Assembly (NCBI GenBank): GCA_963678705.1
Contig: OY783206.1
Coordinates: 15,325,807-15,389,806 of the forward strand
Direction: 5' to 3'
DNA: 64,000 nt
DNA from: Panorpa germanica
Lineage: Eukaryota; Arthropoda; Insecta; Mecoptera; Panorpidae
Shown here: in pieces, positions 1 through 64,000 of the stretch
How positions within the stretch are numbered: the first letter of the stretch is position 1
Layout: each line of letters begins with the position of its first letter
Translations under genes and position numbers: made by a program
Notes under the pieces: generated by a model
The model's input: only the letters and a program-made list of their open reading frames with translations
Database searches by the model: none
What the model was told of the DNA's origin: nothing

Positions 1-720
1 AGAATATGTGCTTTGGTGCTGGAAATGTGGGCGGCGGTTCAGGGGATTAAATTGAAAGTACAATAACGGGAAGGATAAGGGCTAGAGATGAGATGATTAG
101 GAGCGAACCGCTAGGCTTTCTTAAAAACATAAATGAATTGATGTAATTAGTAGGTTTACATTGAAATGAGTGAAAATTAATTTTATCAAGCATTTATCTT
201 ATCGAATAATTATTAAAAAATAATATACTTCTAAGGATGAAATTTAGTGTGTAGGTTGCCAGTAAAGTATTAATTATGAAAACTAATTGTTAAGAGTATT
301 AGTACGCAGGAGGTAAAAGCGCAAGATTGTTTAATGATTGCGGTAAAAGGGGCGATAGAACAGTGCCGTTATGTGCGATGATTCTCAGGTTGGCTGTGGT
401 GTTGCAAGTGGGCGCATTGTGGCAGAGGTGCAGAGGAATACAATTGAAAGTGCGAGAACGATACAGAGCATGGAGCCAAGAGGTGATGATTAGTATTACG
501 GGGCGGGGCAGTGGACATTTTTCAATACTGCGCTTTATTAGGGTAAATAATAATTTTACACAGAGAGGAGGAAACGAAGGATTATTTAATTATAGTGCTA
601 AAGCGGGTGCGCTGTGAATGTACTCTAAGGACCGACGATGCTCAGGAAAGAAGCGATACAGAGTGCTGAAGGAAAAAGGCGCTCCATGGCTTATGGGCGG
701 GGGCACTGGAGACTGGTCAA
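1..720. repeat. Diverged GC-richer repeat units of unknown family
   Basis: At least two similar segments stand out from the AT-rich background, around 15-110 and 375-500, with a weaker third around 600-720, giving a spacing of roughly 380 bp. Each carries a purine-rich core with a shared attgaaagt string. The same core occurs on the opposite strand at 47030-47310. The open frame at 327-617 lies inside this repeat and I do not regard it as a gene. The family is not recognised. Confidence 0.45.
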
Positions 721-903
721 TACAGTGCTTTATTACTGTAAATGAAAGAATTATAACAAAATAAAAAAAAAAAGTTTAAAAAAGATATATTATAACGAAA
801 ATTACTTAAAAATAATATTTTGCATTATTTTCAATTTAGCTAATAAATTTATTTATTCACAAATATTAAATACACGTCGCTTTGCGACGGGGCGAAGCGC
901 TAG
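721..903 (+). mobile_element. AT-rich spacer ending in a Helitron-type 3' end
   Basis: The stretch is plain AT-rich DNA until about 873, where a short palindrome (cgtcgctttgcgacg) is followed by a G-run and CTAG at 900-903, then T. A hairpin about ten bases before a CTRR end is the hallmark of a Helitron 3' terminus. Only this end is recognisable. A related end lies on the minus strand near 46859-46890. Confidence 0.5.
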
Positions 904-1847
904 TATATTATAATGTTCCAAGTGTATATTTATATGTTTGTTGCTGAAATTCGTATGGTAGAATGGAAACGGCTCCTACGATCTTTTTGAAAATTTCCTA
1001 TTTCGTAGAGAAAAAAATTCTAAGACTTTTGGCGTCCCTGGATTTTTCCCTGAATTTCCTGGAAACCCGTAATTTTGGAAAAACTAAAAAAAAAATTTTT
1101 ACTTTTTGCTCTATAACTTTTAATTCGTAAAAGATAGAAAGTTGAAATTTTGCATGTGTATTAAGGTATTCAATGCTGACATTTATCAAAAATTAGAAAT
1201 TCAAAAATTAAAAAAGGGGGGGTTGAAGAAATTCGGGGGCCCGGTAGGGAACTTTGGAGATAGTTCATATTTTGGATTCTAGAATAATTAAGTATATTAT
1301 TAATAAAAAAAAATTCAAAATTTTAAAATTTTGTTGGGGGGCACGGGGGCAGTATTTGCCGAGAGTAAAAATTGTGCTAGAAAGTTGAAATTTTGTATAT
1401 AGGCTAACCTTGGTAACTTATTTACGAATCGAAAAAAAAAATCCTTAATTTTGAAAAAAAGTTGGTCAAATAACGCATAAATTGAAAATATTTTTTATTT
1501 TGATAAAAAAAATATATTTTTTTACTCAATTTATATGTGGCAATGTATATGTGCGAGTTTATTTATTATTTCAATTTAAAAATAGAACAGTTAAATATGA
1601 AATGTAATTACGAATTATTTTAATGGATTCAAATGATACACGCCAAAAAGACGTCGCTTTGCAACGGGGGTAAACTATAGTAGAGTTAAATATGAATTGT
1701 AATTACGAATTATTTTATTGGATTCAAATATACACGCCAAAAAGACGCTTTACCACGGGGGTAAACTCTGGTGGAATTAAAATTTTTACATGAAGTTCAA
1801 GCCACACACAAAAGACAGACGTCGCTTGCGACGGGGGTAAAAGCTAG
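904..1847 (+). mobile_element. Non-autonomous Helitron copy 1, with three successive 3' ends
   Basis: The body is the same AT-rich, non-coding sequence as the next copies. Instead of one terminus it has three end-like blocks in a row, near 1650-1678, 1740-1765 and 1818-1847. Each has the gacgtcgc..cg hairpin or a decayed form of it, followed by ggggtaaa. Only the last keeps CTAG followed by T (1844-1847). No Rep/helicase reading frame is present, so any movement would need a transposase from elsewhere. Confidence 0.75.
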
Positions 1848-1859
1848 TATTCTTATATT

Positions 1860-2613
1860 CTTATATTCTTATGATCTTATATGTTTGGTACTGAATTTTG
1901 TATGGCAGCGCGAAAACGGCTCCAGGGAAGTTTTTAAAAATTTCCTATTTCGTAGAGAAAAAAATTCTAAGACTTTTGGCGTCCTCGGATTTTTCCCTGA
2001 ATTTCCTGGAAACCCGTAATTTTGGAAAAACTGGAAAAAAAGTGAACCCTTTTTTGCTGTATTACTTTTAATTCGTAAAAGATAGAAAGTTGAAATTTTG
2101 CATGTGTATTAAGGTATTCAATTCTGACATTTCTCAAAAATTAGAAATTCAAAAAGTGAAAAAGGGGGGGTTGAAGAAATTCGGGGGCCCGGTAGGGAAC
2201 TTTGGAGAAAGTTCATATTCTGGATTCTAGAATAATTATGTATATTATTAATAAAAAAAAATTCAAAATTCCAAAATTTTATTTGGGGGCACGGGGGCCG
2301 TATTTGTCGAGAGTAAAAATTGTGCCAGAAAGTTGAAATTTTGTATATAGGCTAATCTTGGTAACTTATTTACGAATCGAAAAAAAAAATCCCAAATTTT
2401 GAAAAAAAGTTGGTCAAATAACGCATAAATTGAAAATATTTTTTATTTTGATAAAAAAAATATATTTTTTAGTCAATTTATATGTGTGGCGAGTTTATTT
2501 ATTATTTCAATTTAAAAATAGAATTAAATATGAAATGTAATTACGAATTATTTTATTGGATTCAAATCATACACGACAAAAGGACGTCGCATTGCGACGG
2601 GGGTAAACTCTAG
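1860..2613 (+). mobile_element. Non-autonomous Helitron copy 2
   Basis: It starts with TC in a tcttatattctta context typical of a Helitron 5' end and finishes with the hairpin cgtcgcattgcgacg, a G-run and CTAG at 2610-2613. It repeats copy 1 at about the same length (roughly 750 bp) and lies directly behind it in the same orientation. It is non-coding; the small open frames differ only because of indels. Confidence 0.78.
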
Positions 2614-2616
2614 GGA

Positions 2617-3377
2617 TCTTATATTCTTATATGTTTGGTAGTAAATTTTGTATGGCAGCGCGAAAACGGCTTCGTCAATGTTTTTGAAAATTGCCTGTTT
2701 CGTAGAGAAAATTTTTGTAAGACTTTTTGCGTCCCCGGATTTTCCCTGAATTTCCTGGAAACCCGTAATTTTGGAAAAACTGGAAAAAAAGTGAGCTTTT
2801 TTTGCTGTATTACTTTTAATTCGTAAAAGATAGAAAGTTGAAATTTTGCATGTGTATTAAGGTATTTTATGCTGACATTTCGCAAAAATTAGAAATTCAA
2901 AAATTGAAAAAGGGGGGGGGTTGAAGAAATTCGGGGGCCCGGTAGAAAACTTTGGAGAAAGTTCATATTCTAGATTCTAGAATAATTAAGTGTATTATTA
3001 ATAAAAGAAAAATTCAAAATTTCAAAATTTTATTTGGGGGCACGGGGGCAGTAATTTCCGAGTGTAAAAATTGTGCTAGAAAGTTGAAATTTTGTATATA
3101 GGCTAACCGTGGTAACTTATTTACTAATCGAAAAAAAATCCCAAATTTTGAAAAAAAGTTGGTCAAATAACGCATGAATTGAAAATATTTTTTATTTTGA
3201 TATAAAAAATATATTTCCTTAGTCAGTTTGAATGAAAAATTAATTGTTATAATATGTAAAATTAATATAGGACGAAACTTATTTATTATTTCAGTTTAAA
3301 AATGGAATTAAATTTTGACACGAAATCCAAGCCACACACAAAAAACAGACGTCGCTTGCGACGGGGGTAAAAGCTAG
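2617..3377 (+). mobile_element. Non-autonomous Helitron copy 3
   Basis: It starts with TC three bases after the CTAG of copy 2 and ends with hairpin cgtcgcttgcgacg, ggggg and CTAG at 3374-3377, followed by T. Its 3' end is the inner border of the inverted repeat, which suggests it served as the 3' terminus when the whole array was copied to the opposite side. Confidence 0.8.
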
Positions 3378-3378
3378 T

Positions 3379-4080
3379 CCTATATTATAATGTTCCAAGT
3401 AAAAGTTTATATTCTTATTTATTTATATGTTTGGCTCCGCGCATTTTCTTGAAAATAGTCTATTTCGTAGAGAAAAAAATTCTAAGACTGTTAGCGTCTT
3501 CGGATTTTCCCCTGGATTTCCTGGAAAAACTAATCATTTTTTTACTTTTTGCTCTATAACTTTTAATTCGTAAAAGATAGAAATATGAAATTTGGCATGT
3601 GTATTACGGTGTTCAATGCTAACATTTTTTGAAAATTATTATGGGGGACTGGTAGGAAACTATGGAGATAACTCAAATTTTGGATTAGTTAATAATGATA
3701 TGTTATTAACAAACAAAATTTCAAAATTCAAAAATTATATTTGGGGACACGGGGGCGGTTTTTGCCGAGGGTAAAAATTGAGCTAGAAAGTTGAAATTTT
3801 ATATATGGGCTAACTTTGGTACCTAATTTACAAATAAAAAAAAATCATCACAAATTTTAAAAAAAAGTTGATTAAATAACGAGTAAATTCAAAATATTTT
3901 TTATTTTCTTGAAAAAAATATATTTCTTTAGTCAATTTATATGAAAAATTATTTTATTATAGAGCGAGTTAAATATTTAAATTTGAAAATAGAATTAAAA
4001 TTTGAAATAAAATTCAATTAACTACACGCCACACATACACACAAAAGACAGTCGTCGTTTGCGACAGGGGTAAACTCTAG
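3379..4080 (+). mobile_element. Non-autonomous Helitron copy 4, outside the inverted repeat
   Basis: This is a more diverged member of the same family, directly behind copy 3. It begins TCCTATATTATAATGTTCC, nearly the same start as copy 1, and ends with hairpin cgtcgtttgcgaca and CTAG at 4077-4080. It is not duplicated in the right arm, so the array has four units here but only three on the other side. Confidence 0.7.
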
Positions 4081-4239
4081 TATATTTACATTTATTCCAA
4101 TCAAATATTCAAAAAATGGTCACTAAAAGAAGAGTTCACAAGCCTGTTAACTGTATTAGTCTTGAATATGCCGGATTGAGGAGAGATTACTGTATTATCA
4201 AATAAAATTACAAAGGAAAAACTTCGAATATCAACTTAC

Positions 4240-7200
4240 AGATTCCAATTCTGCCAAAATGGAGTATACAATGGGGCACATCATGGCCGTTGCAGCAGCA
4301 TTTGTGATCCACATTGAAATAGACGTTGTAATTAAAGTCAGAGCAATTTGTAGTCTGCAAAGAACGCAAGAAAAATATTGAGATATACGAGAATTCAGAG
4401 AAATTGGCGAACAAATTTTAATCAATTTTTGTTATTTATCTACACTTGTATTGTATAACTTACCTTCTGTGACTGGTTCCAAGTAATAACATCGAACCAA
4501 GTGCTAGCCGATTATGTAAATTGGAGAACTCTATAACGACGGCAAACATGATACCGCCGACGCACATCATCGTTGTATCATTCAAGTAGGCCATGCAAGT
4601 ATCTCTGGTATTCTAAAAGAATGTTATGAAGAGTAAGGCAACCGATTTGCATCGTTAATAAATAACGAAAACAGGTGAATGTATTTCAAAGAGTGTATTT
4701 TAAACTAGTAATATTTCATGAGAAAATGCCCCTTACTAAAATCCATTTACTTAAGCTATGTGAAATATTAACAACACAACTTCGAAATTACTAGATTATA
4801 TGAAAGATATAACTTTTGGGCGCTGAGTGTACTACCTTAGAGCATATATATATATATGAAGAGTGAATGCTGGACCTGAAAGTGTGTCCAAAATGAGTGT
4901 GAGAGAGAAAGGTATATGTTCCTATTTGTTCTCTATGCGCATGCGTCGAAAGATATAATACGTGACTAGCTTTTACCCCCGTCGCAAGCGACGTCTGTTT
5001 TTTGTGTGTGGCTTGGATTTCGTGTCAAAATTTAATTCCATTTTTAAACTGAAATAATAAATAAGTTTCGTCCTATATTAATTTTACATATTATAACAAT
5101 TAATTTTTCATTCAAACTGACTAAGGAAATATATTTTTTATATCAAAATAAAAAATATTTTCAATTCATGCGTTATTTGACCAACTTTTTTTCAAAATTT
5201 GGGATTTTTTTTCGATTAGTAAATAAGTTACCACGGTTAGCCTATATACAAAATTTCAACTTTCTAGCACAATTTTTACACTCGGAAATTACTGCCCCCG
5301 TGCCCCCAAATAAAATTTTGAAATTTTGAATTTTTCTTTTATTAATAATACACTTAATTATTCTAGAATCTAGAATATGAACTTTCTCCAAAGTTTTCTA
5401 CCGGGCCCCCGAATTTCTTCAACCCCCCCCCTTTTTCAATTTTTGAATTTCTAATTTTTGCGAAATGTCAGCATAAAATACCTTAATACACATGCAAAAT
5501 TTCAACTTTCTATCTTTTACGAATTAAAAGTAATACAGCAAAAAAAGCTCACTTTTTTTCCAGTTTTTCCAAAATTACGGGTTTCCAGGAAATTCAGGGA
5601 AAATCCGGGGACGCAAAAAGTCTTACAAAAATTTTCTCTACGAAACAGGCAATTTTCAAAAACATTGACGAAGCCGTTTTCGCGCTGCCATACAAAATTT
5701 ACTACCAAACATATAAGAATATAAGATCCCTAGAGTTTACCCCCGTCGCAATGCGACGTCCTTTTGTCGTGTATGATTTGAATCCAATAAAATAATTCGT
5801 AATTACATTTCATATTTAATTCTATTTTTAAATTGAAATAATAAATAAACTCGCCACACATATAAATTGACTAAAAAATATATTTTTTTTATCAAAATAA
5901 AAAATATTTTCAATTTATGCGTTATTTGACCAACTTTTTTTCAAAATTTGGGATTTTTTTTTTCGATTCGTAAATAAGTTACCAAGATTAGCCTATATAC
6001 AAAATTTCAACTTTCTGGCACAATTTTTACTCTCGACAAATACGGCCCCCGTGCCCCCAAATAAAATTTTGGAATTTTGAATTTTTTTTTATTAATAATA
6101 TACATAATTATTCTAGAATCCAGAATATGAACTTTCTCCAAAGTTCCCTACCGGGCCCCCGAATTTCTTCAACCCCCCCTTTTTCACTTTTTGAATTTCT
6201 AATTTTTGAGAAATGTCAGAATTGAATACCTTAATACACATGCAAAATTTCAACTTTCTATCTTTTACGAATTAAAAGTAATACAGCAAAAAAGGGTTCA
6301 CTTTTTTTCCAGTTTTTCCAAAATTACGGGTTTCCAGGAAATTCAGGGAAAAATCCGAGGACGCCAAAAGTCTTAGAATTTTTTTCTCTACGAAATAGGA
6401 AATTTTTAAAAACTTCCCTGGAGCCGTTTTCGCGCTGCCATACAAAATTCAGTACCAAACATATAAGATCATAAGAATATAAGAATATAAGAATACTAGC
6501 TTTTACCCCCGTCGCAAGCGACGTCTGTCTTTTGTGTGTGGCTTGAACTTCATGTAAAAATTTTAATTCCACCAGAGTTTACCCCTGTGGTAAAGCGTCT
6601 TTTTGGCGTGTATATTTGAATCCAATAAAATAATTCGTAATTACAATTCATATTTAACTCTACTATAGTTTACCCCCGTTGCAAAGCGACGTCTTTTTGG
6701 CGTGTATCATTTGAATCCATTAAAATAATTCGTAATTACATTTCATATTTAACTGTTCTATTTTTAAATTGAAATAATAAATAAACTCGCACATATACAT
6801 TGCCACATATAAATTGAGTAAAAAAATATATTTTTTTTATCAAAATAAAAAATATTTTCAATTTATGCGTTATTTGACCAACTTTTTTTCAAAATTAAGG
6901 ATTTTTTTTTTCGATTCGTAAATAAGTTACCAAGGTTAGCCTATATACAAAATTTCAACTTTCTAGCACAATTTTTACTCTCGGCAAATACTGCCCCCGT
7001 GCCCCCCAACAAAATTTTAAAATTTTGAATTTTTTTTTATTAATAATATACTTAATTATTCTAGAATCCAAAATATGAACTATCTCCAAAGTTCCCTACC
7101 GGGCCCCCGAATTTCTTCAACCCCCCCTTTTTTAATTTTTGAATTTCTAATTTTTGATAAATGTCAGCATTGAATACCTTAATACACATGCAAAATTTCA

Positions 7201-10126
7201 ACTTTCTATCTTTTACGAATTAAAAGTTATAGAGCAAAAAGTAAAAATTTTTTTTTTAGTTTTTCCAAAATTACGGGTTTCCAGGAAATTCAGGGAAAAA
7301 TCCAGGGACGCCAAAAGTCTTAGAATTTTTTTCTCTACGAAATAGGAAATTTTCAAAAAGATCGTAGGAGCCGTTTCCATTCTACCATACGAATTTCAGC
7401 AACAAACATATAAATATACACTTGGAACATTATAATATATGATAGTTATTAAATATAACATTATATTATTGTAAAATAATGTAGATATGTATAAATATAA
7501 ATAAACTATATATAAATATAAATGTAACTGAAAACGTGAGTTCTGTTCACTCCAAATATCAATTATTGGCCGTTATCCCTACAGCGACACCTATAGCGTT
7601 CATGAGTATATGTTTTCACTGAACGGTCACTGTTTTACCGAGAGACGAGCTTTGTACCAACTAAACAAATATAATTTCTTTACATATATTTTATTTGTTA
7701 TATCTTAATAGAATATTAATATTTATTATATCTAGACAGCTGTCACTTTCGACGCATGCGCATTGAAAACAAATAGGAACATATACCTTTCTCTCTCGCA
7801 AACATTTTGGACACATTTTTAATCTATAGGATATATTCACACTCCATATACATATGCTCTAAGTATACTACAGAGGTTGCTTTGTTGTGTACAGCTTTGC
7901 CATATTTATCAGCGTTGATATACCAGATGTAGCTATTTTTAAACGAGACTGATGCTGCTACTACGCATGCGCCAAAGTTGCAAGTCCGACTGCTGTACAG
8001 CGTGAACCCTTCTCTTTCATTTGCCGGCACTCTGGTCAAAAAATTGCTAATGAAACTTATCTTTTATTGAAAGTGGCAGTGAATATTTATCACGTGCTCG
8101 GGTTTTTGAGTGGTTTAAGTGTTTCGAAGATGGCCGAGAAGACGCAGAACGTGATGCACGCCCGGGACGGTTCTGCACGTCAAAAACGATAAAAGATATT
8201 GAAAAAAGCAGTAAACTGATCAGATCTAATCGTCGGTTCGTCTCTTTATGCGATTGGTGAAACTGTAGGAATGCGTAAGACAAATTTGACATAAGAATTT
8301 TAATATGCAAAAAGTGTGTGCGAAAATGGTGCCAAAAATTCTCACAATCGAACACTTTTCTAGAAAAGTATAACCATTATTCGCTTGAGCTGACATTGTG
8401 TGACTTTTAGGGCCTTATTCTGTAACTTTTCAAAAAATCGACCTTAATTTCTCAGCGGTGGAAATATTTAATTTTTTCACCGCTCGAATAAAGTCGCTGT
8501 ATTTAAAATATCTAAAGTGGTATTCTGTATGCAAAATTTTCCATCGCCCTTATAATATACAACGATGGTATGTATAAACTGGTATTGATGACTTATTTTA
8601 AGACGTCATCAATTTTAAAAATATTTGACCAATCACGGCATTCAGAATATTCAAATATTTAAAAATTCAAACACTTGACAAGTACGAACACATGTAAATT
8701 GTTCAAGTCAATTGACAAGCAACATAACCTCACTTTCTGATATATATATACAAATACTATACATATACTGTGTATTAAAAAATTTGTACTGAAATTCAAA
8801 TTATAATTCAAATTGTTTGACAGTTTTAAAAAATACAGCGATGAAAAATTTTAAGTCACCGCTAAAGGCGACCTTATAATTTCGTCGATTTTTTCCAGCG
8901 ACAAAAATAAAATCGATGGCAATTTCTTACAGAATACCAAATAAAAAATCATGGCTTTTGTTACGTCATTTTACAGCGATGAAATTTTTTCACCGGTGGA
9001 AATACTTTACAGAATACCCCTTAAAGAAATTAGAGTTCAGACCATTGCAGTTGGAAAGACAAAACGGCCCGCGTCATAAACGAGATTACAGAAGAAGACT
9101 TCCAACCACAACAATGCTTAGCTGGTCTACCTTCGATAAATCTAAATCTAAACTGTTCTTTTTATAAAATGAAATAAAAACTGTGATTTCTCATAAGCCT
9201 TAATGTTAAATTAAAAATTCAAAGTTCAATATATTTTTACTGGTTCTCTGCAGTTTTTCTGAAATTTAACGAGATCAAAATCTTATTATAGTCTACTAAT
9301 ATAGCAAATTTAAGAAAATATTAAACGGTAACTCTCTGACCGACAGTACTACCTTAACGTCGTGTTGCAACCTATTTTATTTACATTCCAAAGATGGCAG
9401 AATTTTTAGCTAGTACAATACGAGGTTTGCTGGTCAGGATCCGAGGGCTCCCTGAGCCCTCCAGCCAAGGAAAATGCGCATGGAGCAATGTAAGAGTAGA
9501 GGTGGTATGTATATTGATAGGGATAGTATTTAAATATGTATTAATTAAAAATAAAAAGTTTTACAAAATTAGTCTCGTTTAAAAATACTAATCTATATGT
9601 AGTGAACTTAACGTTTTGTAAGAAACATCAGCCTCTGCTTTTGCCTGTAGATTGTTACTAGCCAACTAGTCGTATCTTAAATATATTCTACCAACAAATT
9701 CTTACCAATATTCCCAATACGGGAAAGGTAATTACTGGAATAAACCCAGTCACAGCAATTGGTATAGCTTCAGTGACCCAGCATGTCGCCATTATACCAA
9801 TAATGTACATACATAAAAATTTCTAAAAAATACATTAATTGTGTTATTAGAGTAATATTGTTGTTCTATCAATTCATGTTATACCCATACATGTACTTAC
9901 AGGGTCCGTTCCATTTATAATCAAAATAGGACAAAATATAATTGGACCTAACAGTGCCACTATGGTTTTCCAGTATACAGAGCAGAAAGCCTTCTTGCGA
10001 TAACAGCATTCTTTAGCAAATCCCCGCCTAGAGGTATTATACTTAATTCAATTTCAAGATATACAGTCAGTATGAAATAATTGAATATACTTTATAAACG
10101 ACTTACTCAACATCCGTGTCTCCCAT
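4240..10126 (-). CDS. SLC13-family (Indy-like) sodium/carboxylate transporter, exons 1-5 only
   Basis: Five exons read on the minus strand: 10107-10126 (start, MGDTDVE with the last codon split), 9901-10027, 9706-9822, 4464-4612 and 4240-4354. All have GT-AG borders and the phases join into 176 codons. Family signs are the FIPV core after TEAIPIAVTG, the [13 protein letters not shown] segment and [14 protein letters not shown], which corresponds to the first SNT cation/substrate motif but reads TNA here. SLC13 proteins move citrate, succinate or sulfate with sodium across the plasma membrane. Exon lengths equal exons 1-5 of the paralogue at 11970-21982. The remaining eight or so exons are not in this window. 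Introns 3 and 5 hold the two arms of the Helitron inverted repeat. Whether the gene still makes a full product is unknown. Confidence 0.85.
4829..7868. mobile_element. Terminal-inverted-repeat element split by the right Helitron array
   Basis: The 123-bp segment 4829-4951 is an imperfect inverted copy of 7746-7868. Shared blocks include a tagagcatat end and a gcgcatgcgtcgaaag inner part. They lie on either side of the Helitron array 4964-7439. Without the array the element would be about 565 bp with roughly 120-bp inverted ends, MITE-like. The precise ends and any target duplication are unclear. Confidence 0.5.
4964..7439 (-). repeat. Right arm of the 2,476-bp inverted repeat: three Helitrons
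   Basis: This is the mirror copy of 904-3379. On the minus strand it contains three Helitron units whose CTAG ends lie at 4966-4969, near 5730-5733 and near 6496-6499, each behind a gcgacg hairpin. The first CTAG is followed by T on the minus strand, as expected for Helitron insertion between A and T. The arm lies in intron 3 of the SLC13 gene, between exon 4 (4464-4612) and exon 3 (9706-9822). Confidence 0.92.
7869..8100. other. AT-rich intron sequence with no recognised feature
   Basis: This is intronic to the downstream SLC13 gene. It contains a tacgcatgcgcc motif resembling those in 4829-4951 and a few unconvincing short reading frames. I see nothing else in it. Confidence 0.4.
8105..8372 (+). 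mobile_element. Mariner-family transposase fragment (pseudogene)
   Basis: The plus strand can be read as EWFKCFEDGREDAERDARPG followed by RFCTSKTIKDIEKSSKLIRS, matching the helix-turn-helix part of mariner transposases (W.kRFk.GRe.veDd.R.GRPsTs). After an internal loss it continues FNMQKVCAKMVPKILT, matching the conserved block that ends the N-terminal half. A stop codon and frame change near 8262-8300 and the missing catalytic half show that it is dead. It lies inside intron 3 of the SLC13 gene. Confidence 0.8.
8408..9026. mobile_element. MITE with ttattctgtaa terminal inverted repeats
   Basis: The left end ggccttattctgtaac and the right end ttacagaatacccctt are inverted copies of each other. 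The internal sequence has several further tattctgta / cttacagaata strings and alternating ..cagcg..gaaa.. blocks. The length is about 620 bp and I see no coding capacity. It sits between the two mariner-like remnants and probably inserted into a mariner copy. Confidence 0.6.
9035..9166 (+). mobile_element. Possible mariner-family C-terminal remnant
   Basis: A frame read as TARVINEITEEDFQ, then QCLAGLPSINLNLNCSF, resembles the end of mariner-type transposases (R-V-xx-ITEEDFQ). It lies directly after the MITE and in the same strand as the fragment at 8105-8372, so both may be parts of one broken element. Only about 30 residues support this. Confidence 0.35.
9170..9700. other. Intronic sequence without a recognised gene
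   Basis: It contains a GC-rich short palindrome near 9442-9465 (gagggctccctgagccctcc). An open frame at 9394-9582 has no recognisable domain and its composition is that of the flanking intron. I see nothing else. Confidence 0.4.
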
Positions 10127-29072: not shown

Positions 29073-31981
29073 ATGCCATCGTATTGTGCTGTATGTCATA
29101 CATCTAAGAAGGGGGTGTCTGTGTTTATTTTGCCTAATCCAAAGCAGCAGCAACGTCATGAAATATTTGATAAATGGGTGAAGTTTATAAACAATCCTAA
29201 GTACAATAACTTAACTCGTGAGGAATTATTCCGGAAAAGGCTTGTAGTTTGTAAAAAACATTTTCATGAGCACGAGGTGGTTAGGGATTTTGCTAAAATC
29301 TATGTAAAGTATGACAGTTTTCCATCGTTGTTTCCAGCTATTGGTAAGCATTTCCAACATTTTTGTATATATATGTAACTGTAGAAATAAAAATATTAAC
29401 TGAGTACTTTTAATAGATGAAGAAATTAGCGGAGATCAGGTTGAAACATTAGCTGTTAATGTGAGCACATCAAGTGAAATACGAAATTCCCCTAAAAGTA
29501 CGCCGGCCGCACGTTTAGTTATAAGAAAACATAAACTACTGGCGAGGAAGAATAACGTACTGAAGGAGAGATTGAGAATGGCGAAGAGTTTATCAACCAA
29601 TGCCAACTTTAAAAAGAAGCTGCAGATGTTAACTCCTGAGGGCGCTCAATTTCTGCAATCACAATTAAGATTAGCAGGTAAAAGTAGACAGGGCCGACGC
29701 TTTAACTTTGAAGATAAAGTAATGGCACTGTCTATTTATAAGCAGGCTCCTAAAGCCTATAGACACTTCGCCAAAATGTTTGTCTTGCCGTCAATATCAA
29801 CACTAAATAATTTGCTTAAAAAATTACCGTTTACAACAGGTATGTCTAAATATTCTTTATTTCGATATTAGTGTATTTTTACAAATATTACTAATATAAA
29901 TTATTATTTGTAGGTATAAATGATTTCCTGGTTAATTATTTGAAGGATCTAGTTAAAGGTTTGTCACTTCAAAACAGAGCGTGTTCCATTCTATTTGATG
30001 AAATGTTTTTAATGCCAGGTAACTGCAACTTATTTATCATGTTATACGAGAACTTATTTAGCAATAACTTAATTTTTATTTTCAGGTTTGAAGTACCATG
30101 CGAGTAAGCGACGTATATCTGGTTTTCAAGATTTGTCAGATGGTATTGCTTCTTCGCGATTTTCTGACCGTGCTTTGGTGTTTATGGTAACTGGACTACG
30201 AAGTAGTTGGAAAATTCCATTTGCTTACTACTTTTGTGAGACCAGTACCAAAACACCTGATCTGGTCAGAATAATAAAAGAAGTTGTGAAGAGCATTGTA
30301 TCGACGGGTCTTGAACCAGAAATACTTGTTTGCGACCAAGGTTCCACAAACATTGCCGCAATTAAATATATTAAGAATGAGAACAGAATGGATGCGCTCA
30401 GAAACGATATCACATATAATGATAAATATGTGATAGTCAGCGGTCGGCAGTTACTACATACCTTTGATGTGCCACATTTGATGAAAGGAATAAAAAATTC
30501 CTTCATCAGTAAAGACATCATATTTAAGTTGGATTCGAATGGCACCGAAAAAAGGGCATCCTGGGATAGCATTACAAAACTATACGATATTGACATTCAA
30601 AAAAATATTCGTGTGGTACCCAAACTTACCGAATACCACGTGAGAGCAGGAAAAATAAAAAAAAATAAAGTATTGCACCCAGGTGTTCAGCCAACGTGTC
30701 GCGTCGATGTTGTCTGTCTACGTTGACGAAGGTGATTCAATTCACCGTTATATTTTTCTATTTTTATCAATTATATTTAATTAATAAGTATGCCACAATG
30801 ATATATTTCTGAATTTTAGGTTCAGTACGCGTTGGAAAATATGCATCGGGCACTGCAGAGCTGCTGCAACTTTTGGACAGTTTATTTGACTCCCTGAACA
30901 GTAACCAAAAAACAGGTGGTGGAAGTAAATATAAGGGGGCTCTCCAAACTGGTTCAGGGCATATAAAATTTTGGAAAGCTGCAATAAAGGTCTTGAATTC
31001 TATGTATTACATAGATAAAGATTACATAGAGAAAGCTAATGATATAGATACGGAAAAATATAAAGGTTTGGTTAAAATCCCGTCAATAAAGAATTTTATT
31101 ACTAGTATAAAAAGTTTTATATGCCTCTGGTTTAAATTGAAAAATGATAAGAAATTTGAATACTTTTTAACCAGAAGGGTGAACCAGGACCCACTCGAAA
31201 AATTTTTAGGTGCCATTCGAACATACGGAAGATTACATACAAGGCCAACACCAACGGATTTTGAAAGTTCCTTCAAAGCATTAGTTATCAATAACATGTC
31301 TTCAAGACATTCTATTGATGCTAACTGTGAAGAGGACAAATGTGTTGGCCTTGTATCAAATATCAGACATTTATTAAGTCATGCGGAAGACAGTGAAATT
31401 GCAGAAGTTGGGGAGAGTGTTTCGCAAGTGCGTGCAACTGTACATGAGCTGGTGCTACAGCAACTCAACTAAATAAAATTTGTAACCTAGATATAGGTTA
31501 CTTTGCTGGATACGTTTTAAGAAGGTGTTTCACACTTCTTAAGTTGAGCGATTGCGACATCTGCAAAAACACGTTAAGGGCAGAATCTCCAACTTCAGTG
31601 CATAAACTGATCGAGAAAAGAGAATTTAAGGATCTCGAAAATAAAAGTTTAGAGTATCCAAATGAACAATTTATAGACTTAATAAAAAATATTGAATGTA
31701 CTGTATTTGAATTACTGCCACAAAAGCACAATAGGGTAGATGAGATTGTGGAAACAGTACGGCATGAAACAGATTTCACTCTTTTCGTATGTACAGATCA
31801 CAGCATAGAGTTAAAAGAGACATTACTTAATTTGTCAGTGAATCTGTACATATATAAATGGGTGAAAGATATTAATCAATTGCTCTCTGGAAGATTATCG
31901 CTCTCATCTTCTATGAAGAGCGATTCTATTAAAGTGGCAGCACAGCAGAAGAGGCAAAAATTATTTATAAAACGTAAATAA
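29073..31981 (+). pseudogene. P-element/THAP9-like transposase, five exons, two frameshifts
   Basis: Exons: 29073-29343, 29417-29839, 29914-30018, 30086-30731, 30820-31981. Exon 1 is a THAP zinc finger: CAVCHTSKKG near the start and VVCKKHF later supply the C2CH ligands. Exon 2 adds a basic coiled segment and a helix-turn-helix. Exons 3-5 carry the RNase-H-like core: ILFDEM (first Asp), ILVCDQGSTN (second Asp), FDVPHLMKGIKNSF, and NQDPLEKFLGAIRTYGR (Glu), followed by IGYFAGYVLRR..CDICK near the C-terminus. These are typical of P-element and THAP9 transposases. Two breaks disrupt it: a single-base shift near 30670-30680, where QVFSQRVASML continues in another frame, and a second near 31460-31475, where the frame stops but NLDIGYFAGY continues in another. 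Otherwise it is well kept, so inactivation looks recent. Confidence 0.85.
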
Positions 31982-45595: not shown

Positions 45596-46137
45596 GTTTC
45601 TACTGACTACATTTCTTTATTTATCTTCATAAGTTGCATTGTGTTGATAGAAAAATAAAATATAAACTATAAACAATTATAAATTTGTGTATTATAATCT
45701 TGTAGTAGTAGATAACCTGATTGAAAATATAAAGCGACGTTTACTCTTATATAACGTAATATAAATTATAAAACTCAACCATGTCTGAATTTCTATAAAA
45801 CTGTGCCATATTGATATTGTTAAAGTTGGATACCAAGACCTCAAATGTCCAATTATTTTTTATATCGCTATATTTTAAGAGATTAACAATTAAAATAGTA
45901 TCTCTTTAATTATTAAAGGGATCGTTATAGAAAATTCCAAACATGTGACGTAACGTTTTGATATATGTATTAAGAGAGTTCTTCATTAAGTATGCTATCT
46001 CTTTTCTACAGCAGAACGTAAAATAGATATAATAACACACTTAACACAAAACACTCATATAAAAAAAATTGAAACTTATAGCCTTTTTCACATCTGCATT
46101 CAGCGGCATTTTAAAACTTTTAAAATTTATAAATCGA
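45596..46137. other. eIF3f 3' UTR and AT-rich spacer
   Basis: After the stop codon a polyadenylation signal is present near 45652. The segment 45830-45930 has wording similar to part of the TGGGCTTGTGTCCT MITE (cctcaaatgtccaattattttt, aattattaaagggat) and is probably a decayed copy without ends. Confidence 0.4.
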
Positions 46138-46855
46138 CTAGAGCTTACCTCCGCCGCAAACGGACGTCTTTTTAGTGTGTACGATTTGAGTCCAACAAAT
46201 TGTAATTTAATTACTAATTTTAATTCTATTTTCAATTAGAAATATTTAACTTTTTCAATAATAAAATGATTTTTCATATAAATTAACTAAAAAATATATT
46301 TTTTTAGACAAAATATGAAATATTTTCATTTTATTCGTTTTTTGTCTTTCAAAATTGGGATTTTTTTTTCGATTTGTACCCCCAGTTACCCCATATATAA
46401 AACTTCGACTTTCTAACTCAATTTTTACCATCGGGAAAAACCGCTCCCATACACCCAAATGAAATTTTTGAATTTATTTTTTTTAATAATATTTATTAAT
46501 TTAACATTATTAAATAATCCAAAATTTGATTTTTTTTCCAAAGTTTCCTACTGAGTAATTTTCTAATTTTCTCAGCGTCCCTTTTATAAAATTTTCAAAT
46601 ATGTTTGCATTCAATAGTGTAATACACATGCAATATTTCACCTGTTTATCTTTTACGAATAAAGTGTTATACAGAAAAAAGTGCCCATTTTTGTCCAGCT
46701 TTTCCAAAATTACATGAATTCCAGGAAATTTAGTTAAAAATTCAAGAACGCCAAAAGTCTTAGAATTTTTTTTTCTACAAGATAGGAAATTTTTAAAAAC
46801 ATTCCTGGAGGCGTTTTCGAGCTACCATATAAAATTCAGTACCAAACATATAAGA
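46138..46855 (-). mobile_element. Non-autonomous Helitron, minus strand, diverged
   Basis: Same family as 904-4080. On the minus strand it starts TCTTATATGTTTGGTACTG near 46855 and ends with a decayed hairpin and CTAG at 46138-46141. Many substitutions and indels separate it from the inverted-repeat copies, so it is older. Directly beyond it, at 46859-46890, a second 3' end (CTAG with a gtgacggggcgatg stem) marks the remnant of another Helitron. Confidence 0.68.
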
Positions 46856-47029
46856 ATACTAGTGCATCGCCCCGTCACAAAGGCTTGTATATAATATTTG
46901 TGATGAAATTAAAGTTATTTGTTAAATTGAACATAATGCTAAATATTATTTTTAAGCTATTTTCGCTAAAATGTATGTTTTTTTAAATTTCTGTTCATTT
47001 TTTCTGCTCTAAATCTACCACTTACCCTA

Positions 47030-55354: not shown

Positions 55355-55369
55355 CGTACACGTCTTATT

Positions 55370-56060
55370 TATAATATCCCATGTGTATGTTTATATTCTT
55401 ATATGTTTACGCGATTCGTATGGTGGCTCGAAAACGGCTATGTCAATGTATCTGAACATTTCCTATTTTGTAGAGAAAAAAAACTTTTGGTGTCCTCGAA
55501 TATTTCCCTAAATTCCCTGGAAACCCGTAATTTTGTGAAAACAGGAAAAAAATAATCACCTTTTCCTGAATATCTTTTAATTCGTAAAAGATAGAAAGTT
55601 AAAATTTTGCATGTATATTACGGCGTTCAATGCTGACATTTTTAAAAAATTAGAAATTCAAAAATTGAAAAAGGGGATTCCGAGTATCTTCTAAACGGCG
55701 GCTACAAAGTTTTTTAAATTTTGGTATTTTTTAGAGGACAATTTTCCAAGACTGAAATTTTCACTGAATTTCACGGAAAAAGCGAGCGTTACAAAAATTA
55801 GAGATCTCTATTCAAAAAACTCAAATTTTGGGTTGTGTAACAATTTAAATTCTAAAATTTTATTTGGGGGCACTGGCGGTTTTTGCCGAAGATAAAAATT
55901 GTGCAAGAAAGTTGAAATTTTATTTATAAACTAACTTTAGTACATTGTTTACAAATTTTAAAAAAATCACAAATTTTTAAAAAAAGTTGGTCAAATAAAT
56001 ATTATATTGAAAATATCTTATATTTTGTTAAAAAAAGTACGCTCTGCGACGAGGATAATT
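55370..56060 (+). mobile_element. Non-autonomous Helitron, plus strand, strongly diverged
   Basis: Shares tatattcttatatgttt, cgattcgtatggtggctcg, ggaaacccgtaattttg and attttatttgggggcac with the 904-4080 family. The 3' hairpin has decayed to ctctgcgacgagg near 56042 and CTAG is gone. Non-coding; the open frame across 55226-55555 is TA microsatellite plus Helitron sequence. Confidence 0.65.
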
Positions 56061-59940: not shown

Positions 59941-63572
<3,632 letters not shown>

Positions 63573-64000
63573 CTAGAGTTTACCCCCGTCGCAAGGGATG
63601 ATTGTGTTTTATATGTGAATTGAATTTCATTTAAAATTTTAATTCCATTTTTGAATTAAAATAATTAACTCGTTCTATATCAATTTTTTTTACATACATT
63701 AGAAATTTATTTTTTTCAACAAAATATAAAATATTTTTAATTTATTCGTTATTTGACAAACTTTATTTCAAAATTTAGGAATTTTTTTTCAATGTGTAAA
63801 GTAGGTACCAAAGTTAGGCCATATTCAAAATTTCAACTTTCTAGCACAATTTTTACTCTTGGTAAAAACCCGTGTTCCCAAATAATTTGTTTGAGTTTTG
63901 AATTTTTTTTTTAATATGATATTCAATTATTACACAATCCAACATTTGAGCTTTCTTCAATGTTTCCTACAGGGTCCCCAATTTTCTCAGCGCCTCTTTT
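63573..64000 (-). mobile_element. Non-autonomous Helitron, minus strand, cut by window edge
   Basis: CTAG (63573-63576) on the minus strand behind ggggtaaactctag and a decayed cccttgcgacg stem gives the 3' end; the body resembles 904-4080 in reverse (tcaactttctagcacaattt, tatttgacaaactttatttc). It runs off the right edge within Klc intron 4. Confidence 0.72.

Follow-up and report, generated by a model that had tools for sequence, protein, structure and literature searches.

The window analysed here, 64,000 nt of Panorpa germanica DNA (C3:15325807-15389806 in a host assembly of 464 Mb and 249 contigs), carries on its left side a head-to-tail array of Helitrons, in which the end of an element X is followed by units A, B, C and D (CTAG positions checked). 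A second copy of the A-B-C part lies ~1.6 kb away in opposite orientation, inside a repeated element with terminal inverted repeats (TIRs; Table 1). B and C form one element, BC, in whose 5' end A is nested, and our analysis makes it very probable that these stacked Helitrons were copied together, as a composite ABC, from the left locus to the right. The likeness among A, B and C is 88-92%, which makes the array far more diverged than the two arms of the inverted repeat; D resembles the three units at 81-84% over ~300 nt, and X is a different element from A-D.

We found that the left arm (904-3379) and the right arm (4964-7439) are reverse complements at 2,475 of 2,476 positions, with a coordinate sum of 8343, as the original prediction had described them. 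The sole mismatch is at 1757, where the left arm has G and the right arm A; G is also present in 10/10 other copies of A, and the mismatch therefore arose in the right copy, which is derived at this position. Pairing breaks off abruptly past 904/7439 on the outside and 3379/4964 on the inside, and the longest inverted repeat that a repeat search returned for the window, 2,486 nt, adds 10 nt inward, mismatches included. The inner border does lie two bases beyond a Helitron CTAG (3374-3377; 4966-4969), the two bases being T and C. The T is expected for insertion between A and T, and the C stems from two unlike flanks, TCC of unit D and TCACG of the target. The outer border at 904 comes directly after a CTAG (900-903), so that both borders coincide with Helitron termini as had been claimed, but the border at 904 is due to the later element X. 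Position 904 was accordingly rejected as the original 5' end: the TCA of the left copy sits upstream of the 2,568-bp X. Likewise, the symmetry of the arms stood while their extent did not, since the right copy proper runs from 4966 to 7442 with its own 5' TCA included. With TCA counted, each copy measures 2,477 bp and the two differ at one position.

The right copy, 2,477 bp from TCA to CTAG, is a Helitron inserted into a single copy of a TIR element of ~0.55 kb. It joins the 5' end of A to the 3' end of BC, retains the internal 3' ends, and contains neither X nor the stub of BC that precedes A at the left locus; having these two ends without the stub, it therefore left as one composite. The site in the window reads ATACGTGA[element]TAGTTATTAAATAT with no base duplicated or lost; on the element strand the insertion falls between AACTA and TCACG, an A-T site, without duplication. 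Without the insertion the window would read ATACGTGATAGTT here. Of the 11 other target-repeat copies that were aligned, 10 read straight through the site, six in the window orientation (ATACGTGACARTTGTTAAATAT) and four in the opposite one, while the eleventh (L052) is rearranged at the site and has no Helitron there. When 40 places were scored for the right flank, every one was either the window or one of 39 further copies of the target, a minimum count; the right part of these copies matches at about 87-91%. The left flank gave a like result. Taken together, the ends (5' TC; 3' CTRR and, some 10-12 nt before it, a hairpin; an A-T insertion site left unduplicated) are those of a canonical Helitron (Helitron1), with family ends 5' TC(A/C)TATATTATAATG and 3' GACGGGGGTAAAAGCTAG, and the combination of one element's 5' end with another's 3' end, an internal 3' end being kept, is that of a composite formed by end bypass.

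At the left locus, the sequence ahead of X consists of GAATATATAA, TCCTATATTATAATGTTCCAACTGTATGTTTATTTTCTTATATTCTTA and TCA in succession, and the 48 bases that begin after GAATATATAA are the 5' end of BC. Such a 48-nt stub upstream of A was found at the left locus only. With X and A removed, the stub joined to 1848 onward restores an ordinary BC 5' end that carries TATTCTTA four times (one to five times in 12 other BC copies), and A therefore sits at an A-T site inside BC, between two TATTCTTA units of its 5' microsatellite. X separates TCA from TATATT in the left A, having inserted 3 nt inside the 5' end of the element. In the right copy TCA is joined to TATATT, and this copy was therefore made before X split the left one, or from an X-free copy. 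As the stub is confined to the left locus, the simplest reading is that the composite arose at this locus and gave rise to the right copy, the left locus being the donor. X itself matches a C7 copy at 99.67% over 1,500 bp, and that copy likewise ends against TATATTATAATG of another element; farther upstream X matches at 98.8% over 863 bp, the likeness ending at TCTTACTATTATAATG. A further copy of X, at ~700-2015 of L027, has its middle replaced by what seems by eye to be reverse-transcriptase-element sequence.

The components of the composite are also found elsewhere in the genome. A search with the whole arm gave 92 matches; the best 40 of 8,201 candidates were scored, and in this set the window arms alone matched end to end at ~100%; the next end-to-end match reached 93% (L003/L009), with an unlike A-B junction, and a check for further copies of the same three-unit arrangement, which the original prediction had proposed, thus returned no other at ~100%. 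BC is abundant, alone or in other arrays: in a sample of 20 loci from the top of the match list, 8 copies were measured against the window BC and are 98.4-99.4% identical to it. BC starts with TCC, and its stand-alone copies have an A before TCCTATATTATAATGTTCC and a T after the final CTAG (L014, L015, L017 and L019; the first, second and fourth share flanks and were counted as one insertion). Element A is mobile by itself, being present at 10 loci besides the window arms (12 fetched), one of them 100% identical. TCA stands before TATATT in the right copy, in the left copy (beyond X) and at 5/10 other A loci (L034, L035, L038, L041, L042); it is missing in L037 and replaced by CTAG in L031, L036 and L039, and L040 is 5'-truncated. 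L034 holds another A nested in the 5' region of an older element resembling BC, and an X-type end precedes this nest. In L025, TATATT follows CTAG yet there is a single TCA at the 5' end, which does not match a simple split.

Table 1. Features of the Helitron array, the putative composite copy and its target repeat (window positions)
Feature	Position	Strand	Remarks
Helitron X, 3' part	1..903	+	2,568 bp in total; starts at C3:15324142, left of the window; ends GACGGGGCGAAGCGCTAG
Element A, left copy, minus its first three bases TCA (upstream of X)	904..1847	+	
Decayed internal 3' end of A	1650..1680	+	Terminates in CTATAG; broken hairpin
Decayed internal 3' end of A	1741..1771	+	Terminates in CTGG; usual hairpin gone
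Intact 3' end of A, apparently passed over in the composite	1820..1847	+	Hairpin; CTAG 1844-1847
Unit B of BC, minus the 48-nt 5' stub	1848..2613	+	Intact hairpin and CTAG 2610-2613
Unit C of BC	2614..3377	+	CTAG 3374-3377 is the 3' end for BC and the composite
Unit D, more diverged Helitron of the same terminal family, directly downstream of C	3378..4080	+	TCC...CTAG
Target repeat, left part (repeated element with TIRs)	4834..4965	+	
Probable composite Helitron ABC, right copy (product)	4966..7442	-	5' TCA at 7442, 3' CTAG at 4966
Target repeat, right part with second TIR	7443..7863	+	

These observations fit a scheme in which non-autonomous Helitrons of one terminal family stack at one another's 5' ends and would then be copied as composites. 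The CTAG of BC directly abuts the TCC of D, and BC is therefore read as having landed in front of D. A would then have inserted at the A-T site in the BC microsatellite, and copying would have started at the 5' end of A (A followed by TCATATATT), run past 1847 and 2613 and stopped at the CTAG ending at 3377. The resulting 2,477-nt composite would have entered, inverted, an A-T site of the TIR repeat 1.6 kb off, and the left copy would later have been split by X at the junction of TCA with TATATT; the events would thus have followed one another as D, BC, A, copying of the composite to the right, and X. We infer from the sequence the rolling-circle steps themselves, a helper protein acting in trans and the precedence of D over BC. 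The original prediction had likewise proposed a start at one 5' end, passage of internal 3' ends and a stop at the third, and the donor, the exact ends and the read-through targets agree with it. As to the helper, a search of the genome for Rep domains reported 150 matches, the listed ones above the cut-off, and many Helitron Rep domains have identical scores in 1,119-residue open frames, which suggests recently active autonomous Helitrons.

We consider joint copying of ABC very likely on the evidence of both copies and their ends, the uninterrupted targets, the stub, and a right copy free of X and of the stub. Several observations weigh against it. Most other target copies have G before the insertion point on the element strand where the window has A, so that these copies usually read G followed by T and the exact pre-insertion base is a matter of inference; six of six Rep loci were without both end motifs in 1.5-kb flanks, and no autonomous Helitron with matching ends was found among them; and a third source of the copies is conceivable, given that the best 40 of 8,201 candidates were scored. 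In addition, local hopping is absent from Helraiser according to extracts from its description (PMC4778049), against which the short donor distance here is unusual.

Inverted repeats can convert one another, and the single difference in 2,477 bp between the copies would also be expected of an old insertion whose arms were kept alike by gene conversion. The data do not require conversion, which would alter the age of the event and not its origin, and we regard such an old insertion as unlikely; that the movement was recent, however, is suggested by arm identity alone, which conversion could equally have kept high. Rather less likely is a third ABC locus as the source of both copies or of the right one, the left locus then being no direct donor. 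Copying to random sites, as in the Helraiser system (extracts from PMC4778049), would favour such a source, but the only other end-to-end match is at 93% and has a different A-B junction, and the left locus retains the BC stub from which the composite could have originated. A segmental inverted duplication would account for arms that are near each other and inverted; it is very improbable because, as the original prediction had argued, both borders fall exactly on Helitron ends. In addition, the interruption of the target repeat neither adds nor removes a base, and TCA and TATATT are adjacent in the right copy and no longer so at the left locus. Large near-perfect inverted repeats are difficult to assemble, yet an assembly artefact is just as hard to credit: flanks, the presence of X and one base distinguish the two copies, and the right copy occupies precisely a site that is uninterrupted in other copies of the target repeat. 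A tandem rolling-circle multimer was rejected on the divergence between the units and from X given above and on the start of A inside the 5' end of BC.

The 3' ends at 3377 and 1847 both consist of CGTCGCTTGCGACG, 10 nt and CTAG. Predicted hairpins have energies of -4.7 kcal/mol at 1847, -6.9 at 2613 and -4.7 at the used end, 3377; against shuffled sequences the z values are modest at 1847 (-1.7) and 3377 (-1.2), and -4.1 at 2613. Element A has three stacked 3' ends, those at 1680 and 1771 decayed (the former folds at -1.3, the latter gives an unrelated fold at -3.4) and that at 1847 intact. The expectation of two bypassed internal ends thus holds for the intact ends at 1847 and 2613, and four were passed if the decayed ones are counted; the decayed pair is present in 10/10 other A copies examined, and therefore only 1847 and 2613 count as intact bypassed ends. 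The end at 2613 is bypassed in every BC copy that continues into C. The further suggestion that weak hairpins were read through did not survive, since the folds at 1847 and 2613 are not weaker than that at 3377, and weak internal hairpins were rejected as the reason for bypass. Because 1847 and 2613 keep CTAG and predicted hairpins, and all 10 other A copies terminate in an end of the 1847 type (L040 with GTAG in place of CTAG), the predicted folds indicate that intact-looking 3' ends can be passed in this Helitron family. Such passage is at odds with the simple view that a 3' end must have lost its hairpin, or have a weak one, to be bypassed.

We found that Helitrons of this family repeatedly lie at the 5' ends of others. 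BC is located between TCA and TATATTATAATG of an older element at L012, L016, L022/L023 (duplicates of each other) and L024. L012 and L016 represent separate insertions at one position, since their BC copies are 98.9% alike and the older downstream elements 92.4%. For L012 and L024 (BC 98.4%, downstream element 99.5%) separate insertions are not demonstrated, and the two may be one composite at two sites. A Helitron 5' end lies within 5 nt of the CTAG at 9/20 BC loci, compared with 3/18,278 sampled window positions. Genome-wide, the pattern GACGGGGN{3,12}CTAGTATATTATAATGT gave 481 matches (reversed control 0) and GACGGGGN{3,12}CTAGT gave 5,685 (reversed control 31); 481/5,685 family 3' ends thus lead directly into TATATTATAATGT, a count that includes duplicated arrays and hence not only independent insertions. 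The exact 3'-end pattern had 0 matches in viral contigs, in a search that may leave out near records. Older Helitron 5' ends are clearly over-represented locally as insertion targets; that they are actively sought out, rather than simply easy to enter because they are AT-rich, is our interpretation. Tentatively, and with more doubt than confidence, we suggest that the Helitron 5' end may be a preferred landing site (between TCA and TATATT, or in the TATTCTTA microsatellite) so that arrays grow from the head, and that leaky stopping at intact 3' ends may yield head-plus-tail composites, some of them abundant (BC), which enter the next round (ABC), perhaps often near the donor. If true, Helitrons would grow and exchange ends through self-targeting and not through capture of host DNA.

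A large Helitron array at C14:15916600-15929100 (L036, L039, L061) holds two F-plus-A composite copies. These (L036/L039) are 99.3% identical over 1,788 bp, 8.5 kb apart, with Helitron termini at both ends and differing flanks; as a second local composite they are only suggestive, the array having other local duplications. Among 16 A places, 2 pairs including this one lie within 10 kb, against 0.005 expected, an estimate biased in that the window pair was noticed for being a pair.

It has been previously reported that Helitrons nest, form chimeras, lie head to tail and bypass ends, and the present locus is an unusually complete case; the comparisons here draw on extracts of the published accounts. 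Helraiser (PMC4778049) is similar in its 5' TC, its 3' hairpin and CTAG, its A-T target and the skipping of one 3' end with use of a later one. Bypass is linked there to an absent or unrecognised hairpin, whereas here the skipped ends still have both hairpin and CTAG. In our case, moreover, an older Helitron provides its proper 3' end as the new terminus, and donor and product are 1.6 kb apart. In the FoHeli chimeras (PMC5148889), too, a Helitron within another yields a new composite, one FoHeli4 having landed 2 bp ahead of the 5' part of a second one; as extracted, however, that scheme combines an outer 5' end with an inner 3' end, the product having two 5' ends and a single 3' end, where ours combines inner 5' with outer 3', and FoHeli is of the non-canonical Helitron2 type, unlike the elements here. 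Our array resembles the maize Helitrons that adjoin one another head to tail (PMC2267711) and Helitrons inserted close to others (Yang and Bennetzen 2009, cited in PMC12477314) in that CTAG abuts the next 5' end through separate insertions; in contrast to those extracts, junctions were here counted genome-wide (481/5,685) and one stack appears to have been mobilised as a whole. Bats have tandem arrays that are likewise head-to-tail (Pritham and Feschotte, cited in PMC2267711 and PMC5876387); these are read in the citing texts as possible rolling-circle tandem repeats, whereas here the neighbours differ and split older 5' ends. Composite rolling-circle transposition is mentioned in PMC4067079. 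Our literature search, made by titles and abstract openings with partial coverage, returned no description of a comparable donor-product pair.

Composite Helitrons are usually inferred from end products, whereas here donor, product, target copies, parts and insertion order are found in one assembly, and the case illustrates how Helitrons can be assembled from smaller ones. Its wider interest lies in the bypass of intact-looking ends, the bias toward older 5' ends and the donor-product distance of 1.6 kb, for which there is one clean case. How frequently copying runs on past an intact 3' end, and whether Helitrons aim at one another's 5' ends, are questions that can be asked in the Panorpa germanica genome.

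Elsewhere in the window, a second stack of an X end and a unit is present at 46128-46990 (-), where a unit lies directly behind an X-type 3' end and starts inside its own 5' microsatellite. More diverged unit copies are at 55366-56060 (+), starting directly behind a long TA repeat, and at 63571-64000 (-). A Pfam scan of six window open frames identified trypsin, a TNP-like RNase H domain and an MMR_HSR1 GTPase, and no family for the other three. A broken DNA transposon protein spans 29404-31981 (+), one piece of it being the TNP-like RNase H (PF21787) and two pieces having no Pfam family.

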